Source of the DNA: a virus
DNA: 22,816 nucleotides
Direction: 5' to 3' (one strand)
IMG/VR virus record: IMGVR_UViG_3300042691_017178
Span: 1-22,816 of that record
Made by a program: the position numbers and the translations under genes. Below, piece after piece: positions 2-22,816 of this stretch; within the stretch, counting starts at the first letter, position 1; every line of letters starts with the position of its first letter. Under the pieces are notes generated by a model. It was not told the DNA's origin. It saw nothing but the letters and a program-made list of their open reading frames with translations, and did no database searches.

Positions 2-256
2 GATGCGATCAACGAATACAAAATTCTTTACAACATTAGAAGAACAAAAGAAGAGGCATTCAAACAGATTGAGAAAGAATTTGGCAAGAAAGCAGTATCA
101 GAAGTTCAAGATTTAGAGGTTAGGTTACGCAAAGAGAAAAAGCAGTTGCAAAAAGACTTTGACTCAGATCGAAAGCAAACTAGAAATGAGTGGCTGATCA
201 TCGGTCTTTTGGGATTACTAATATATGCAGTACTTAAAGTGACAAAGGTGTGGTGA
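2..256 (+). CDS. Coiled-coil protein with C-terminal membrane anchor (5'-truncated)
   Basis: The reading frame is open from base 2 to a TGA at 254-256; its start lies outside the window. The visible 84 residues are highly charged and rich in Lys, Glu and Gln, as expected of a long helix or coiled coil. They end in one hydrophobic segment (WLIIGLLGLLIYAVL) followed by a short basic tail, so the protein is probably tail-anchored with its bulk in the cytoplasm. Its stop overlaps the next start (TGATG), which places it in the same operon as the holin and endopeptidase. This topology is opposite to an Rz-type spanin, whose membrane segment is N-terminal, so I do not call it a spanin. The function is not recognised; an accessory lysis or membrane role is an inference from position. 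Confidence 0.75.
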   Translation, partial: DAINEYKILYNIRRTKEEAFKQIEKEFGKKAVSEVQDLEVRLRKEKKQLQKDFDSDRKQTRNEWLIIGLLGLLIYAVLKVTKVW

Positions 257-720
257 TGCTAGGACTAGATGCAATACTTAAAATTGGCGAAAAGGTGCTT
301 GATCGGGTAATGCCTGATCCTGCCGCCAAAGCAGAAGCGCAAGCCAAACTCATGGAGCTCGCCCAAAAGGGTGAGTTAGCCAATCTGCAAGCTGAGGTTG
401 ACTTTGCCAAGATCGATGCTGGTGATCGAGATTCAGCCCGTAATCGTGAGGCTGAGATGGCTAAAGCAGATGTTTGGGATTTAACTAAAAACATCAACAC
501 CATACTTGCCATCGGTGTTATTTGCTTGTCATTTGTTCTCTTTGGTGTGCTGATGATGATTGAAGTCAAAAGCATTGCGAAAGACATTCTTATCTACATT
601 CTTGGGGTTTTATCTGCCGCAATCACTCAAATCTTGTCCTTTTACTTTGGCTCAAGCCAAGGCTCCAAAAATAAGCAAGCTGAGATCGACAAAATGATGG
701 GAAATGGGCATAGCAAATGA
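256..720 (+). CDS. Holin, GTA 3TM-like family
   Basis: This 154-residue protein probably permeabilises the inner membrane at the end of infection so that the endopeptidase encoded next can reach peptidoglycan. A charged helical N-terminal half (residues 1-75, with DPAAKAEAQAKLMELAQ) precedes two hydrophobic segments at about 81-101 and 110-131. The C-terminus has the SFYFGSSQGSKNK-type motif followed by a charged tail. That layout matches the holin family named for gene-transfer-agent release (GTA_holin_3TM), where a DP-x-x-A-x-A helix and a YFGSS/GS-K ending are typical. I chose ATG 256 because it overlaps the upstream stop; GTG 250 and GTG 253 in the same frame would add two residues. The last bases overlap the M15 gene start (ATGA). 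Confidence 0.85.
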   Translation: MLGLDAILKIGEKVLDRVMPDPAAKAEAQAKLMELAQKGELANLQAEVDFAKIDAGDRDSARNREAEMAKADVWDLTKNINTILAIGVICLSFVLFGVLMMIEVKSIAKDILIYILGVLSAAITQILSFYFGSSQGSKNKQAEIDKMMGNGHSK

Positions 721-1166
721 ACCCCTCTGACAAACTTTCGGAGAACTTTACCTATGAAGAACTTACTCGCTCGGATACAGCAGTTCGGCTTGGCGTTGAA
801 AACACGCCTAATGACGCTGAAATCGAAAATCTCAAAAGGCTCGCTAGCCTCCTCCAAGAAGTCAAAAAAGCGGTAGGCGGCAAGGCCGTGATGATCAATA
901 GTGCCTATCGGTCTAAACCTGTCAACGATGCGGTCGGATCGAAGGATTCATCCCAACATCGGCTTGGCTGTGCGGCTGACCTCCGAGTTCCGGGGATGAA
1001 GCCACGGGAGGTGGTGGAAGCCTGCATGGCCGCCAAAGTCCCTTTTGATCAGATCATCCTTGAGTTTGACTCTTGGACGCATATTTCGGTGCCAAACACG
1101 CCTGAGATGCGGCCTCGCGGCCAAGCCCTGATAATTGATAAACAGGGAACAAGGGCATTTGCATGA
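717..1166 (+). CDS. Endolysin: M15A-type D-Ala-D-Ala metallopeptidase
   Basis: This 149-residue protein is a zinc peptidase of the M15 family (peptidase_M15_3 type), expected to cut peptidoglycan cross-links or stem peptides. The family signature is visible: YRS at 64-66, the first zinc-binding pair in SQHRLGCAADL (His81 and Asp88), and WTHIS with the third ligand His122, preceded by Glu116. Such small single-domain M15 proteins serve as endolysins in many phages, and the holin immediately upstream (ATGA overlap at 717-720) supports this. There is no signal peptide, so export would depend on the holin. A virion-associated role is possible because it sits among structural genes, but a second muralytic enzyme (the SLT protein at 12988) fills that place better. 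Confidence 0.92.
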   Translation: MNPSDKLSENFTYEELTRSDTAVRLGVENTPNDAEIENLKRLASLLQEVKKAVGGKAVMINSAYRSKPVNDAVGSKDSSQHRLGCAADLRVPGMKPREVVEACMAAKVPFDQIILEFDSWTHISVPNTPEMRPRGQALIIDKQGTRAFA

Positions 1167-12987: not shown

Positions 12988-14340
12988 ATGAACCTAAGTT
13001 TCTACAAAGACTTAAACGAATCTCAGAAGCAGTACGCTCAAAAGATTGCCGCCAAGGCAAGGGAGATGGGTGTGCCGCCTGAGCTTGCCGTAGCCATCGC
13101 TTTTAAAGAAAGCGGGTTAAATCCTAAGGTTCAGGCCGGTGGTGCGGGTGAGGTTGGGATCATGCAGATTAAGCCTGATACCGCAAAAGAGGTTGGCTTT
13201 TCTGTAGAGGACATCCGAGACCCTGAGAAAAATATCGAAGCTGGACTGAAGTACATGAAAAAGTCCTTGGATATGAGCGAGGGCAATCCGAAGCTTGCCG
13301 CCGCCGGGTATAACGCAGGGATCAATCACCCGTTTTTTACTTCTAAGGGAACAAATCTTCCTGACATAACAGTTAATTATTTGAAAGATTTAAAGGGCTA
13401 CGGGGCGTTTCCGGCAACAACTGCTGCTCCCGCCGCTCAAGGAAAGCCATCTGACATTGAATTTGAGCCACCTGAGACTTTGGACTCATCAGAGTTTCAA
13501 AAGCAAATTGAGGCGGTCAGAGAGAAATCTGCCCGTGGCCGTGGTCAAATTATAGGAGGAGCCGCCGGGACCGGTCTGACTGCTGCCCGGATTGCCAAGC
13601 CCGTAATTGGTAGCGCAGCAAGATTTATCGGTGGGGCGGCTGAGGAAGGCCGACAAGCTGCCATTCAAAGGGCGGCTCCCCAACCGCCGGTCGGTGGTGC
13701 CTTGGCTCCACAACTCGCCTCTGAGGCTACTGCGGCCAACAGAATCCTCCAAGGGACTACGGATGTCGATACCGGTACAACCGGTCGGGCAAGGATGTCG
13801 GGCTTTAACATTGAGTCTGCCCAACAGGCGGCCAGGACCAAGGAAGCCGCTCGCCAAATTGGAGCTCTTCAACAGGCTGGTGTAGGAACCAAGACTGCCC
13901 AACAACTGCTTGCTGAAGCTCCTGGGCTTACTGCATCGGCATCCGGAGTGGTTTATCCGCGATCTGCCCCTCCAGCTACACCCGTAGCCCCACGGGGTGG
14001 GTTAGATGAGGTCACCCGCCTTTTCAGGCAGATGATTGAGCCGGGATCGAGGACAAGGGCACTTGCTTCCACCGCTCTTCGCTATGGCGCACCCCCGTTG
14101 GCGGGTTATCAGATGGGAAGTGAGCTGGGTTCTATGGCCGCAGAATCACAAAAAGAAAAACCGGACTACGAAAAAATGGGTTTGTCCGGTCTAAGTGCCT
14201 TAGGATTGGGTATGTCGTTATTTCCTACTACCGCTCCTGTTGGCATCCCCTTGGCTATCACGGCCCCTCTTTTGCAGTACGCAAGAGAGAATCCTGCCGC
14301 AGGTCCACTAGGTCAAACTGGCGAAATTACCGCCCCCTGA
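12988..14340 (+). CDS. Virion-associated lytic transglycosylase (SLT domain)
   Basis: This 450-residue protein begins with a lysozyme-like SLT domain at about 10-125, expected to cleave the glycan strand locally during DNA entry. Visible family motifs are the catalytic glutamate Glu41 in AFKESGLNP, GEVGIMQIKPDTA (54-66) and AAGYNAG (105-111). The remaining 325 residues are Ala/Gly-rich with helical segments (GQIIGGAAGTGLTAARIA) and a hydrophobic stretch near the C-terminus (PTTAPVGIPLAITAPLLQYA). An SLT head on a long helical, partly hydrophobic body is the plan of T7 gp16-type ejection proteins, although this one is much shorter. It is the last gene of the structural operon and is followed directly by the terminator. 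Confidence 0.88.
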   Translation: MNLSFYKDLNESQKQYAQKIAAKAREMGVPPELAVAIAFKESGLNPKVQAGGAGEVGIMQIKPDTAKEVGFSVEDIRDPEKNIEAGLKYMKKSLDMSEGNPKLAAAGYNAGINHPFFTSKGTNLPDITVNYLKDLKGYGAFPATTAAPAAQGKPSDIEFEPPETLDSSEFQKQIEAVREKSARGRGQIIGGAAGTGLTAARIAKPVIGSAARFIGGAAEEGRQAAIQRAAPQPPVGGALAPQLASEATAANRILQGTTDVDTGTTGRARMSGFNIESAQQAARTKEAARQIGALQQAGVGTKTAQQLLAEAPGLTASASGVVYPRSAPPATPVAPRGGLDEVTRLFRQMIEPGSRTRALASTALRYGAPPLAGYQMGSELGSMAAESQKEKPDYEKMGLSGLSALGLGMSLFPTTAPVGIPLAITAPLLQYARENPAAGPLGQTGEITAP

Positions 14341-14384: not shown

Positions 14385-14408
14385 CCCCGGCTAGACCGGG
14401 GTTTTTTT
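14385..14408 (+). terminator. Rho-independent terminator of the structural operon
   Basis: CCCCGG (14385-14390) pairs with CCGGGG (14396-14401) around a 5-base loop, followed by seven T residues (14402-14408). This is a classic intrinsic terminator for plus-strand transcription. Its loop and distal arm also encode the last codons and the TAG of the convergent minus-strand gene. On the minus strand neither hairpin is followed by a T-run, so leftward transcription has no matching intrinsic terminator here. Confidence 0.8.
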
Positions 14409-15210: not shown

Positions 15211-15215
15211 TCCTT
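15211..15215 (-). promoter_or_regulatory. Ribosome binding site deciding the winged-helix gene start
   Basis: AAGGA on the minus strand lies 7 bases before ATG 15203 and overlaps the end of the exonuclease gene (stop at 15214-15216). It favours the internal ATG over the one at 15227. Confidence 0.6.
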
Positions 15216-15987
15216 ATCGATGATCATTTTTTAACTGCCAAAATTCTAAGAGTTTATAAAACATCTTCCAACCCTTGATAAGTTCAGCCTCATCCCACTC
15301 CTTGATCACGGTTAAGCCCGGAACGCTACGGGATACAAATACATTGGCGCACCGGGCCTGAGTCATGCCAAGCCCAACCCGATAGGCGGCCAACTGCATG
15401 AGATGCTCATCGTATCCATCGACCTTGGATGGATCATCAAATTCCTTAGTTTTGATGTCCAAAATGATCCCAACCTTCGGGTTATCAACGCTTCGGGTAT
15501 ACATATCGCATTTACCCCCGAAGCCTGACTCATGAGCGAAAGAGTCTTCGCAGACCCATTTGTGGTCCCCGAAAGTTTCATGAATCTTTGCATCACATCC
15601 AATTACAAACTCAGCATAGGGATAGCCGGATTCGTTCTCATAGTGTTGTTGGATGGCGGCGTGGATCTTGGTTCCCTCATCGGCGGCGGCTCGACCCTGC
15701 TCCTTTGAGTCTTCCATGATCCGACTGAGATATTCCTCTTCGGGTTCATCTTGCCGCCGGGGAAGCGTCAGGGAAGCGAACAAGACTTGTTGCATCTTCC
15801 ATTTCTCAAGCCCAGGCTTGGCGGCCACATTCAGGATTGTGGTCACCGATGGAACAAGATCATGAGCTCTTGCATCACGCAGGGTCGTGTTCCGCATCTT
15901 TTTGTTTTTGCCCTCAATGGTGTACATCGGCTCGCCCTTACGGGTGTACCAATGCCCTGCCTCTGAGGTATAGGCGGATACTTTCAT
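15214..15987 (-). CDS. RecB/Cas4-type PD-(D/E)XK exonuclease
   Basis: This 257-residue nuclease probably resects double-stranded DNA ends to give single strands for phage recombination. The RecB/Cas4-family motifs can be seen in order: LVPSVTTIL (45-52), GTKIHAAIQQHY with His109, SGFGGKCDMY with Asp161, the core LDIKTKE with Asp177 and Lys179, and MQLAAY with Gln198 and Tyr202. These make up a complete active site. No cluster of four cysteines of the Cas4 iron-sulphur type is present. The start overlaps the previous stop (ATGA) without a strong ribosome site, so translation is likely coupled. Together with the SSB-like gene of the same operon it forms a recombination cassette. Confidence 0.88.
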   Translation of the reverse strand: MKVSAYTSEAGHWYTRKGEPMYTIEGKNKKMRNTTLRDARAHDLVPSVTTILNVAAKPGLEKWKMQQVLFASLTLPRRQDEPEEEYLSRIMEDSKEQGRAAADEGTKIHAAIQQHYENESGYPYAEFVIGCDAKIHETFGDHKWVCEDSFAHESGFGGKCDMYTRSVDNPKVGIILDIKTKEFDDPSKVDGYDEHLMQLAAYRVGLGMTQARCANVFVSRSVPGLTVIKEWDEAELIKGWKMFYKLLEFWQLKNDHR

Positions 15988-16235
15988 GCTGACTCTGCCT
16001 TTGGGGGTTCGTTGGGAATCGCCGTAAAGTGTTTTGCAAGGTTATGTTGGGCGATATAAGAACCCAAGTCGATGGGTTGCTTGGCCATCATCCCGTTTAA
16101 GAACATCACCAAAATCTTGGCGCATTCTTTTCCGGTCATGTCATCAGTCGGTGAAAAGACCAAAGCCTCCTCACCTAATTGAATCCGGATGTCTCCGACC
16201 GGGACCGCTTGATTTGTTTGAACTTCTTCAGTCAT
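15984..16235 (-). CDS. Small acidic early protein, unknown function
   Basis: This 83-residue protein lies between the lipoprotein gene and the exonuclease, with AAGGAG before the start and an ATGA overlap to the exonuclease. A short strand region (VGDIRIQLGEEALVFSPTDD) precedes a helix (GKECAKILVMFLNGMM) and a loose Pro/Glu/Ala-rich tail. No membrane segment or catalytic motif is present. Coupling to the exonuclease suggests, without proof, that the two act together, for instance as an exonuclease partner. Confidence 0.75.
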   Translation of the reverse strand: MTEEVQTNQAVPVGDIRIQLGEEALVFSPTDDMTGKECAKILVMFLNGMMAKQPIDLGSYIAQHNLAKHFTAIPNEPPKAESA

Positions 16236-16244
16236 AACTTCTCC

Positions 16245-16520
16245 TTACCATGCAGGGGCACAAGTCACATCCGCAACATACGGAGTGGTGTGATTGTTGA
16301 TTCGTTTCTTTCCGTAAATCATTACGGCCCGAAGGCCGGTTGATTGACAGTCCTTTATTGCGCTGATTACCTCTACGCGATCCATCGGCTGAATCGTATG
16401 GTCCAAGACCAACATTTGGTTGCCACTTAAATTCTCAGCCGCTCTTTTGTCGGTTGTCGCACAACCCTGAATCCAACCTGTCATACAAATCGCAAGAGCA
16501 ATAAGCATAGGTCTCCTCAT
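16245..16520 (-). CDS. Small early lipoprotein
   Basis: This 91-residue protein has a classic signal peptide: two Arg at the start, a hydrophobic core (PMLIALAICMTGW) and a lipobox ending in IQGC, with the lipidated cysteine at position 20. Gln at -2 is unusual for a lipobox. The mature part of about 70 residues has two further cysteines (58 and 87), which could pair, and a strand-rich end (GLRAVMIYGKK; YVADVTCAPAW). It has a strong ribosome site (AGGAGA). It sits inside the leftward recombination operon rather than in a lysis cassette and no Rz partner is adjacent, so an outer spanin is not the natural reading. Phage lipoproteins made early often block superinfection (for example T5 Llp); that role is an inference here. 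Confidence 0.8.
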   Translation of the reverse strand: MRRPMLIALAICMTGWIQGCATTDKRAAENLSGNQMLVLDHTIQPMDRVEVISAIKDCQSTGLRAVMIYGKKRINNHTTPYVADVTCAPAW

Positions 16521-16529
16521 TTTCTTCTC

Positions 16530-17168
16530 CTAAAATGGAATGTCATCATCAAGTTTGTCAATCTTAGACATCGCTGATCCGATGCCCTCCGTTACTCCGG
16601 CCTCACGCTCTTTCCACTCCGGTGATGATGAAATCTTGTTTTTAAGGTTTTCTGAAAAGGTATCGAACAGTTCCATGTCTGGATCTTCGATTGAAAAAAT
16701 CTTCAGTTCGTTGACTCCTTGTGGAAGCCCTGCCTTTTTCATGTTGGCAGGAACCGGGTTGATCCCTGCGATATTGGTGTAGGTCTTGCCGTTAGATTCC
16801 GTATGGATCACGGATAGCATCGCCCACGCCCCTAAAACATTTTTCAACTCAAACCCACGCAACTCCTCAGCCGTGAAGTCTCGCCCACGCCACATCTGTA
16901 AATCCTTGCGGAGTGTGGATTTTTCAGCCAAGGTCAAAGAGAAACTCTTGGCAATCGATAAAGGGCGGCCATCCTGAGTTACCAAGGCGTTGCCCCGCTC
17001 ATCTTCCCCGTGAACCTCAAACTGAATCATTACCTTGGGTACATACTTTTCCTTGCCCATGTACTCCGATTTTTGGGTGCCAAGATCGATGATCCGATAG
17101 CACCTCGCAAGGTGCATTCCCGCCGGTACGGTTACAAAGTCCCCGGAGTCTTTAGCTACTAACGGCAT
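16530..17168 (-). CDS. Single-stranded-DNA-binding-like protein
   Basis: This 212-residue protein is expected to coat single-stranded DNA made by the exonuclease or at the replication fork. The N-terminal two thirds are strand-rich and consistent with an OB fold (LARCYRIIDLGTQKSEYMGK; KVMIQFEVHGED; GAWAMLSVIHTESNGKTYTN). The C-terminus is an acidic tail ending DDDIPF, the same kind of ending bacterial SSB uses to recruit partners. Related phage proteins are usually annotated SSB, and a strand-annealing role is a possible alternative. The start is supported by AGGAAAGGA. The first 17 bases overlap a 53-residue gene upstream. Confidence 0.75.
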   Translation of the reverse strand: MPLVAKDSGDFVTVPAGMHLARCYRIIDLGTQKSEYMGKEKYVPKVMIQFEVHGEDERGNALVTQDGRPLSIAKSFSLTLAEKSTLRKDLQMWRGRDFTAEELRGFELKNVLGAWAMLSVIHTESNGKTYTNIAGINPVPANMKKAGLPQGVNELKIFSIEDPDMELFDTFSENLKNKISSSPEWKEREAGVTEGIGSAMSKIDKLDDDIPF

Positions 17169-17376: not shown

Positions 17377-17403
17377 TAGTTTCCTTTTTTGAAAGACTTA
17401 ATA

Positions 17404-17409
17404 TATGAT
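17404..17409 (+). promoter_or_regulatory. Possible -10 box of the rightward early promoter
   Basis: TATGAT matches five of six bases of the sigma70 -10 consensus and lies 28 bases before the Cro-like gene start. No convincing -35 box is found at 16-18 bases upstream, so the promoter would be weak or need help. The transcription start would fall within the palindrome. Confidence 0.3.
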
Positions 17410-17410
17410 C

Positions 17411-17425
17411 TCCTTAAATTAAGGA
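17411..17425. promoter_or_regulatory. Perfect 15-base palindrome, probable Cro-like operator
   Basis: TCCTTAAATTAAGGA is a perfect inverted repeat (7+1+7) placed between the predicted rightward -10 box and the ribosome site of the Cro-like gene. A dimeric helix-turn-helix protein bound here would shut off its own transcription. The same half-site reappears in the leftward promoter. Confidence 0.6.
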
Positions 17426-17426
17426 T

Positions 17427-17431
17427 GGAGG
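17427..17431 (+). promoter_or_regulatory. Ribosome binding site deciding the Cro-like gene start
   Basis: GGAGG lies 5 bases before ATG 17437. An in-frame ATG at 17425 overlaps both this site and the palindrome and has a poorer site, so 17437 is preferred. Confidence 0.6.
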
Positions 17432-17436
17432 ATGCG

Positions 17437-17646
17437 ATGACCTTGCAGGAATACTTTCGTGACAAGAAGCGGGGAGCCAAGGATGGGCTGGCCAAGGAGC
17501 TTGGGATTAGCCGAACTTGGATGAGTCAATTGATTCAGGGGCGGCAGGTCTGTTCCCCAGAGTTGGCCAAGGAGATAGAGCGGTTGACCGGTGGGGCCGT
17601 GACCCGCAAGGACCTACGCCCCGACTTGTTCGGGGAGGTCGCATGA
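17437..17646 (+). CDS. Cro/YdaS-like helix-turn-helix regulator
   Basis: This 69-residue DNA-binding protein has a single helix-turn-helix domain: LAKELGISRTWMSQLIQGRQ (about residues 19-38) with the recognition helix in SRTWMSQLI. A helix (SPELAKEIERLTGGAVTRKD) and a DLRPDLF ending typical of YdaS/Cro-family phage regulators follow. As the first rightward gene, with a palindrome just before it and a half-site in the opposite promoter, it probably represses both early operons late in infection or sets their balance. No CI-type repressor gene lies on the opposite side, where lambda-like phages carry one. The stop overlaps the next start (ATGA). Confidence 0.85.
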   Translation: MTLQEYFRDKKRGAKDGLAKELGISRTWMSQLIQGRQVCSPELAKEIERLTGGAVTRKDLRPDLFGEVA

Positions 17647-20884: not shown

Positions 20885-21229
20885 ATGAAAAAACTACTGA
20901 CAGTCTTGTTAATGTTTCCTGCCTTGGCGCAAGCTGAGTTTGAGACCGGCAATAGCCTTTACACCAAGATGCAGGATCAAAGTAATGGTGAGCGGATGTA
21001 TGTCATGGGTTATGTCACGGGGGTCTTTGATGCCCATCAGCACATTAATCATTGCCCTCCAGGCCATGTAAATCTTACGATTGGACAGGTTACCGACATC
21101 GCCCGGATGTATCTGCAGCAGAACCCGGCGATCCGACACAAGACCGCTGATGTTCTTTTACGAGATGCTTTCAGAGCGATATGGCCGTGCGCCAACCGAA
21201 ACAATAGCGGGGGGACTACAAGACTATGA
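20885..21229 (+). CDS. Secreted Rap1a/Tai-like protein
   Basis: This 114-residue protein has a signal peptide (MKKLLTVLLMFPALAQA, probable cut after Ala17) and so is expected in the periplasm. The mature part follows the Rap1a/Tai pattern: YVMGYVTGVFDAHQHI, CPPGHVNLTIGQVTDIA, MYLQQNPAIRHKTADVLLRD and a final AFRAIWPC, with two conserved cysteines (57 and 102) for a disulphide. Members of this family neutralise amidase toxins of type VI secretion, and relatives occur in phage genomes with no proven role. ATG 20885 follows GGAGGAAAG; a longer reading back to 20774 has no supporting site and would overlap the previous gene heavily. The next gene, a membrane protein, is coupled to it by ATGA. Confidence 0.82.
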   Translation: MKKLLTVLLMFPALAQAEFETGNSLYTKMQDQSNGERMYVMGYVTGVFDAHQHINHCPPGHVNLTIGQVTDIARMYLQQNPAIRHKTADVLLRDAFRAIWPCANRNNSGGTTRL

Positions 21230-21477: not shown

Positions 21478-21661
21478 CGACAAGGTAAAAGAGTTGCAGG
21501 CCAAACTGATCGATAAGAACACGATGTTCCTTGCCTATAAAGCAATCGCTCAAAGGCAACGGGACAACCTTGACCTTTGGAAGCCACCGATGACCGCTTT
21601 TGGTCATGAACTACAGATGGCACTCCGCGAGCTTCACGCCGTGATCTTGGACAGTAAATGA
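21431..21661 (+). CDS. Small coiled-coil protein, unknown
   Basis: This 76-residue protein starts at ATG 21431 with GGGAGAAAGAA upstream; an alternative TTG at 21395 would add 12 residues and is less likely. It is largely helical with a heptad-like stretch (LATANDKVKELQAKLIDKN) and a C-terminal amphipathic helix (HELQMALRELHAVILDSK). It overlaps the membrane protein by 47 bases and the methyltransferase start by 4 bases (ATGA). Its role is unknown; it may oligomerise. Confidence 0.68.
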   Translation: MDLDYHEMDMQLATANDKVKELQAKLIDKNTMFLAYKAIAQRQRDNLDLWKPPMTAFGHELQMALRELHAVILDSK

Positions 21662-22816
21662 AATATCTATCGGTCTGCTCAGGCATTGAGGCGGCGACCT
21701 CAGCTTGGCATCACATGGGGTGGGAACCCGTAGCGTTTGCGGAGATTGATGCGTTTCCATCAGCCGTACTCAAACATCATTATCCCGATGTCCCAAACCT
21801 TGGGGATATGTCGAAATTTAAGGAGTGGAATCTTGGAACAGTTGACCTTCTTGTCGGAGGAACCCCCTGTCAGTCCTTCTCTGTCGCCGGACTCAGAAAA
21901 GGATTGGACGATCCGCGTGGCAACCTCATGCTCACCTTTGGTGCCATTGCTCGCCACCTCGCTCCCCGTTGGTTGGTTTGGGAGAATGTCCCTGGGGTCC
22001 TGTCGTCAAACGGAGGACGGGACTTTGGTTCCTTCCTTGGAATGTTGGGAGAATGCGGGTATGGGTTCGCCTACCGAGTTCTTGACGCTCAGTACTTCGG
22101 AGTGGCACAAAGACGCCGCCGTGTGTTCGTTGTCGGATGTCTTGGAGACTGGCGACCTGCCGCGGCGGTTCTTTTTGAGCTCGCAAGCCTGTCGGGGAAT
22201 CCTCCGCCGAGCAGAGAAGCGGGGAAAAGAGTTACCTTTGGCTCTGCAGCAGGCCCTCAGTACGGTGGCTCAAGCAAAGACATCGCCGATACAGTCACAA
22301 GCAAGTGGGCCAAAGGATCAGGAGGACCCGCAGGAAACGAATGCGGACTCTTTGTAGCCCAACCGGCAGTCTTGATGGATCAAGGCGGTAGTGTTATGGA
22401 AGTCAGGACTGATGGCACGACCGGCACCTTGAGAAGAGAGACTCACGGCCATGAACCCATAGTTATGCAACCAGTTGGCGTTCCCGATGTGATGTCCACC
22501 CTGCTTTCCTCAACCGCAGGGGTATCGAGGCCGGGAAACGCCGCAACGGAGCATGAGACCTACATTCCGGTCGCCTACCGAAAATCTAAGCGAGCTCACA
22601 CCGTTGATGATGATGAAACTTGGGTAGAGGACGGGGTGGCTAACACTATCAATTTGTTCGATCAGGGTGATATCAAGACCACCCATGCCGTAGTTCAGCC
22701 AATCTCATGGGATGAGGAATTAAATGCCAACACCGACTTGGCCGGCACCTTGATCCGGGGTGGGCAGGGAGGCAGGAGGGATGGAGTGTTGGCCTTCTCT
22801 TCCAATATGAGCGTTC
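21658..22816 (+). CDS. DNA cytosine-C5 methyltransferase (3'-truncated)
   Basis: The frame is open from ATG 21658 (ATGA overlap with the previous stop) to the window end. It gives at least 386 residues and lacks the C-terminal motifs IX and X. Motifs are visible in order: I at LSVCSGIEAATSAW (4-17), IV with the catalytic cysteine Cys71 in GGTPCQSFSVAGLRKGLDDP (67-86), VI ENVPG (109-113) and VIII QRRRRVFVVG (151-160). The target-recognition region beyond about 165 is unusually long and has five short units, each built on a T-L/V/I core (TVTSKWAKG, GTLRRETHG, STLLSSTAG, NTINLFDQG, GTLIRGGQG). Such genes protect phage DNA from host restriction or shape replication control. A separate short frame seen across 21737-22357 is a shadow of this gene. 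Confidence 0.9.
   Translation, partial: MKYLSVCSGIEAATSAWHHMGWEPVAFAEIDAFPSAVLKHHYPDVPNLGDMSKFKEWNLGTVDLLVGGTPCQSFSVAGLRKGLDDPRGNLMLTFGAIARHLAPRWLVWENVPGVLSSNGGRDFGSFLGMLGECGYGFAYRVLDAQYFGVAQRRRRVFVVGCLGDWRPAAAVLFELASLSGNPPPSREAGKRVTFGSAAGPQYGGSSKDIADTVTSKWAKGSGGPAGNECGLFVAQPAVLMDQGGSVMEVRTDGTTGTLRRETHGHEPIVMQPVGVPDVMSTLLSSTAGVSRPGNAATEHETYIPVAYRKSKRAHTVDDDETWVEDGVANTINLFDQGDIKTTHAVVQPISWDEELNANTDLAGTLIRGGQGGRRDGVLAFSSNMSV

Follow-up and report, generated by a model that had tools for sequence, protein, structure and literature searches.

A small gene on the minus strand of a virus record encodes what we take from its sequence to be a phage lipoprotein, and the product belongs to a large unnamed family with several hundred members, mostly in aquatic phage sequences. 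The window analysed here is the whole of that IMG/VR record, 22,816 bases in length, classed as linear and possibly a fragment. Based on the analogy with Llp, Cor and Rtp45 and on the gene context, we tentatively read the product as an early, periplasm-facing outer-membrane lipoprotein that would exclude superinfection in the manner of those proteins, and we put the chance of this at a little under even. Expressed from a recombination operon early in infection, the lipoprotein would leave the cytoplasm, receive its lipid at Cys20 and end up in the inner leaflet of the outer membrane. There, a disulphide-braced domain of about 45 residues would face the periplasm and bind an outer-membrane protein from below, which would shut the cell to further phages. 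What we infer here covers the steps of export and lipidation, the disulphide bond and early expression as well as the target and the exclusion of other phages.

The open reading frame is a real gene under purifying selection, since it combines a dN/dS of about 0.1 with tight operon spacing, a Shine-Dalgarno sequence and several hundred relatives in IMG/VR. Against the nearest relative, which is 81% identical, dN is 0.136 (about 0.14) and dS is 1.28 by the NG86 method, and the differences are distributed 14/9/40 over the three codon positions. The start codon lies 9 nt past the SSB-like gene, the overlap of the Shine-Dalgarno sequence with that gene's stop codon reading TAGGAGAAGAAAATG, and the next gene begins 9 nt beyond the lipoprotein stop codon. 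A codon-usage gene caller overlooked the gene in the window as well as in many of the relatives, and conservation-based calls were used afterwards. The proposal of a lipoprotein, made in the first-pass annotation, is borne out by the sequence: the lipobox is IQGC, with Cys20 at its end, and a lipobox is present in most of the 207 loci collected. Cys12 is part of the signal peptide, and the mature part has no cysteines other than Cys20, Cys58 and Cys87. According to the Lol rule, the residue at +2 after the lipidated cysteine governs sorting between the membranes; because this residue is Ala here, sorting to the outer membrane is expected (Table 1).

Table 1. The lipoprotein gene, its sequence and model features, and the genes around it (window positions)
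Feature	Position	Strand	Basis
Lipoprotein gene, 91 aa	16245..16520	-	ATG at 16520, stop at 16245; relatives, dN/dS
Signal peptide, residues 1-19, lipobox I-Q-G at its end	16464..16520	-	Sequence, family lipobox statistics
Cys20, expected lipidation site; +2 residue Ala	16461..16463	-	Sequence
Predicted helix, residues 48-60, with invariant Cys58 (16347-16349)	16341..16379	-	AlphaFold2 model, alignment
Predicted beta hairpin, residues 64-88, with invariant Arg64, Lys71 and Cys87 (16260-16262)	16257..16331	-	AlphaFold2 model, alignment
Shine-Dalgarno AGGAG, overlapping the stop codon of the SSB-like gene	16527..16531	-	Sequence
SSB-like protein gene, phrog_862, tail ...DDDIPF	16530..17168	-	Directly upstream
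Small first gene of the operon, 53 aa	17152..17313	-	ORF list, gene caller
Downstream gene, 83 aa, function not assigned	15984..16235	-	ORF, PHROG annotation
Exonuclease, phrog_298, probably PD-(D/E)XK type	15214..15987	-	PHROG; PF12705 below its cut-off
YdaS/Cro-like regulator, divergent	17389..17646	+	PF15943

The operon spans 17313 to about 14391 and is convergent with the late genes, which end at 14340. A terminator-like stem lies at 14385-14401, such sites being no commoner in the window than in shuffled sequences, and a promoter scan likewise gave no more matches than shuffles. The upstream neighbour is called SSB-like from its acidic DDIPF tail and its place, the PHROG itself having no named function. 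An early recombination operon had been claimed for this region; both parts of the claim stand for the neighbours, the SSB-like protein (phrog_862) and the exonuclease (phrog_298), though the early timing is what we infer from gene content. Elsewhere among the replication-side genes, 20885-21229 on the plus strand codes for another protein directed to the envelope, an exported immunity protein of the Rap1a type (PF18602, E 1.2e-13). Proteins of this type confer immunity to secreted amidases, and this one might guard against the amidases of rivals. A DNA cytosine methyltransferase gene (21658-22815, plus strand) runs off the end of the record and is the sole part of the window for which GenBank phages give near DNA matches.

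Scanning IMG/VR with the window protein alone gave no relatives; alignment-based scans did retrieve them, and in three profile-guided scans the matched stretches that were confirmed numbered 381 of 488, 388 of 397 and 481 of 498. Three GenBank phages carry relatives at 44-50% identity by tblastn. The first scan of GTDB genomes confirmed none of its 34 matched stretches, and a second scan of bacterial genomes confirmed 3 of 30, two from Polynucleobacter and one from an uncultured proteobacterium. The working set of 207 loci consists of the window, the three GenBank phages and at most 80 loci from each IMG/VR scan, with some contigs represented twice. Where hosts are known they are Gram-negative, as with Limnohabitans phage DC33, the Polynucleobacter genomes and a phage-like plasmid of Burkholderia that encodes a 43% identical relative. 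This plasmid, pBVIE05 of Burkholderia vietnamiensis G4 (loci L221 and L222), carries genes for a terminase, a phage repressor, ERF, an exonuclease, RdgC and RepB, and because of the first four it looks like a phage-plasmid. On a Polynucleobacter MAG contig (L218, 6399-6989), a HigB/HigA-like toxin-antitoxin pair was recognised by eye near the lipoprotein gene. No Pfam, NCBIfam or PHROG family covers the lipoprotein convincingly among the 42, 42 and 25 members scanned, the Pfam and NCBIfam scans giving scattered weak matches in one or two members each, and nothing that we recognised as describing the family was found in the open-licence PMC literature.

In 207 of 207 loci the two mature cysteines keep a spacing of exactly 29 residues, and the earlier remark on two mature cysteines extends from Cys58 and Cys87 to an invariant pair. 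A strict filter recognised the lipobox in 184 of the 207 rows; among the other 23, a lipobox can be seen by eye in 21, and two (L015 and L076) are cut or shifted at a contig start. The residue at -2 is Ser in 103, Thr in 35, Ala in 18, Val in 16 and Gln in 6 of the 184, and the Gln of the window protein, initially singled out as unusual, is thus rare in the family too. Asp at +2 occurs in none of the 184. In members of several groups (loci L010, L012, L043, L061, L068, L070, L075 and L140), among them groups in which the gene precedes ERF, the membrane segment and lipobox are preceded by some 20 further conserved residues, (I/F)..(D/E)GPY; this is unusual for a lipoprotein.

An AlphaFold2 model built from 42 sequences has a mean pLDDT of 76, with a block at 80-94 from residue 41 onward, and predicts a helix (48-60) followed by a hairpin with strands at 64-74 and 77-88. 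Cys58 is placed close to the end of the helix and Cys87 close to the end of the second strand, positions that would fit a disulphide between them. A structure search, which had been proposed at the outset, yielded no significant PDB match: Foldseek found nothing at E 0.001, and the best VIA-align Z was 3.3. The structures of Llp, Cor and Rtp45 are absent among the PDB matches listed, which is not exclusionary, partly because AlphaFold is reported, in passages of PMC9586334 and PMC12685063, to mispredict lipoproteins of this sort. In BFVD there were two viral matches below 0.001, one of them titled only 'Lipoprotein'.

Across the aligned lineages, Arg48, Glu50, Arg64, Lys71, Arg72 and Lys73 (family numbering) are conserved. 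Receptor blocking by the lipoprotein would be consistent with the analogy to known proteins, but the strong conservation of the domain over many phage lineages speaks against a receptor-specific blocker, which should track its receptor. Because of this conservation, the target would rather be a conserved part of the envelope. The main rival to superinfection exclusion starts from the same point: the lipoprotein may bind a conserved outer-membrane or periplasmic machine, such as Bam, Lpt, Lol, Tol-Pal or the peptidoglycan enzymes, and tune envelope growth or stress in infection instead of blocking phages. That the same positions are kept across lineages is easier to reconcile with a single conserved partner than with a variety of phage receptors, and the gene is under strong purifying selection. 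Yet homology to any envelope regulator was lacking in the Pfam, NCBIfam and PHROG searches (42, 42 and 25 members), and we regard such a takeover of the envelope as a serious idea that is nevertheless on the unlikely side.

To describe the gene context, the 207 loci were clustered into 36 groups (85% identity over the last 58 residues), and their neighbours were annotated with PHROGs. These neighbours include exonucleases (phrog_298, 149, 434 and 1990), annealing proteins (Erf, RecT, Bet and Sak4) and single-strand binding proteins, and the recombination systems that adjoin the lipoprotein gene are unrelated to one another: SSB with an exonuclease, ERF, RecT, and Sak4 with a Cas4 exonuclease. 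The first-pass annotation had placed the gene next to DNA-processing genes, and this holds in most lineages: in 25 of the 36 groups a recombination gene lies no more than 260 bp away on the lipoprotein's own strand. When another small plus-strand gene was picked at random from these loci 5000 times, 11.3 groups qualified on average and never more than 20; the excess is somewhat overstated, as the recombination families that were counted had come to notice as neighbours of the lipoprotein in the first place. A single SSB-exonuclease module is common to ten of the groups. One Polynucleobacter genome has genes for Sak4-like, SSB-like, lipoprotein, Cas4-like exonuclease and helicase products in that order, the names being given by resemblance to annotated loci. 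On a poorly resolved tree (36 rows, 60 columns) there are 17 label changes, against a least number of 5 and a shuffled mean of 21.4. This suggests that the lipoprotein gene may have been joined repeatedly to different recombination modules.

This association can be explained in more than one way. The gene might be a passenger, an accessory gene that rides early promoters and has settled beside recombination genes by chance; early operons house many accessory genes, and 11 of the 36 groups are without a listed recombination gene within 260 bp. The count of 25 groups against the random draws, with its caveat on how the families were found, argues against chance, and we consider a mere passenger quite unlikely. 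The linkage to several unrelated recombination systems could also be taken to mean that the lipoprotein serves the recombination module from the periplasm and works at the envelope on DNA that is incoming or co-infecting. Recombination proteins are cytoplasmic, however, and the lipoprotein should be outside the cytoplasm; we know of no precedent for such a helper and find the idea hard to credit. In a combined scheme, which seems to us improbable, the two would travel together because they jointly decide the fate of a second phage genome: the lipoprotein would close the envelope by jamming an outer-membrane machine that is conserved, and any DNA still entering would be handled by the recombination genes. 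For superinfection exclusion, the placement itself has a precedent in sieB, which in both lambda and P22 belongs to the early left operon and is close to recombination genes.

A role in lysis would make the lipoprotein an Rz1-like outer spanin with its partner elsewhere. The product is by sequence a small outer-membrane lipoprotein, and its gene is convergent with an endolysin or Rz-like gene in several lineages. The window has no other convincing lipobox ORF, the one further filter match (19375-19187) being antisense to the helicase gene, and no Rz1-like ORF was found in the window, a record that may be incomplete. We rejected the outer spanin for the family because relatives carry their own Rz/Rz1 pairs: an Rz-like gene is present in 25 loci, and at this gene 24 of them, from 6 groups, have a separate lipobox ORF rich in proline. 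In the relatives examined in detail the lipoprotein is encoded on the strand opposite the lysis genes, and the holin/endolysin region of the window (250-1166) is 15 kb away, in another operon and on the other strand. In place of a proline-rich tail the protein has a conserved domain with the invariant Cys pair. PHROG matches to Rz-like spanin families (25 members scanned) fall largely over the signal peptide in the 10 members inspected. The initial judgement that the gene is out of place for lysis therefore agrees with the separate Rz/Rz1 genes of its relatives, and we hold a spanin role to be very improbable. Rz1-type outer spanins are likewise small phage outer-membrane lipoproteins of Gram-negative hosts, but they are proline-rich, are encoded within Rz or next to it in the lysis cassette, and coexist with the present family in the same loci.

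If the lipoprotein does exclude phages, the family would be a common means of competition among aquatic phages, as several hundred members occur in environmental phage contigs and the known hosts include freshwater Burkholderiales. The conservation of the domain suggests that its target in the envelope is conserved too, and why the gene is so often linked to unrelated recombination systems is a question that can be tested.

A few laboratory phages have provided the known superinfection-exclusion lipoproteins. As described in passages of PMC9586334, T5 Llp is a small, periplasm-facing outer-membrane lipoprotein with a Cys11-Cys58 disulphide that excludes superinfection, binding FhuA from the periplasm and shifting its outer loops. 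Rtp45 of phage Rtp, in passages of PMC12685063, is likewise a periplasm-facing outer-membrane lipoprotein, of about 6 kDa, with a Cys30-Cys38 disulphide and a hairpin, and binds LptDE from the periplasm. The protein reported here is similarly a small lipoprotein by sequence and has a cysteine pair in its mature part that may form a disulphide like the single one of Llp and Rtp45, the likeness to Rtp45 being one of description. It differs from Llp in that no similarity of the mature part is detectable beyond the signal peptide (Cor against Llp itself also scores low) and in that T5 llp adjoins the gene for the receptor-binding protein, which the present gene does not. Cor of N15, HK022 and T1 is again a small lipoprotein, and of its two mature cysteines the second is close to the C-terminus. 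A mature Cor profile of 8 sequences aligned to the family with hhalign gave a weak score of 21.6 (probability 25.7% over 19 columns), compared with decoy maxima of 16.3 for 100 column-shuffled Cor alignments and 19.7 for 200 natural alignments. PHROG 1119 (Cor) matches 5 of 25 members with a best E of 0.0065, all matches starting in the signal peptide and some running into the domain among the 10 members inspected. In contrast, the AGYPF motif of the eight Cor sequences is absent from the family, and N15 cor sits among tail genes rather than recombination genes; sequence kinship to Cor is suggestive only. The family is new and unnamed, whereas small periplasm-facing outer-membrane exclusion lipoproteins with one disulphide are an already known format; by analogy, the lipoprotein probably acts like Llp, Cor or Rtp45, and we do not file it as a member of any of these.
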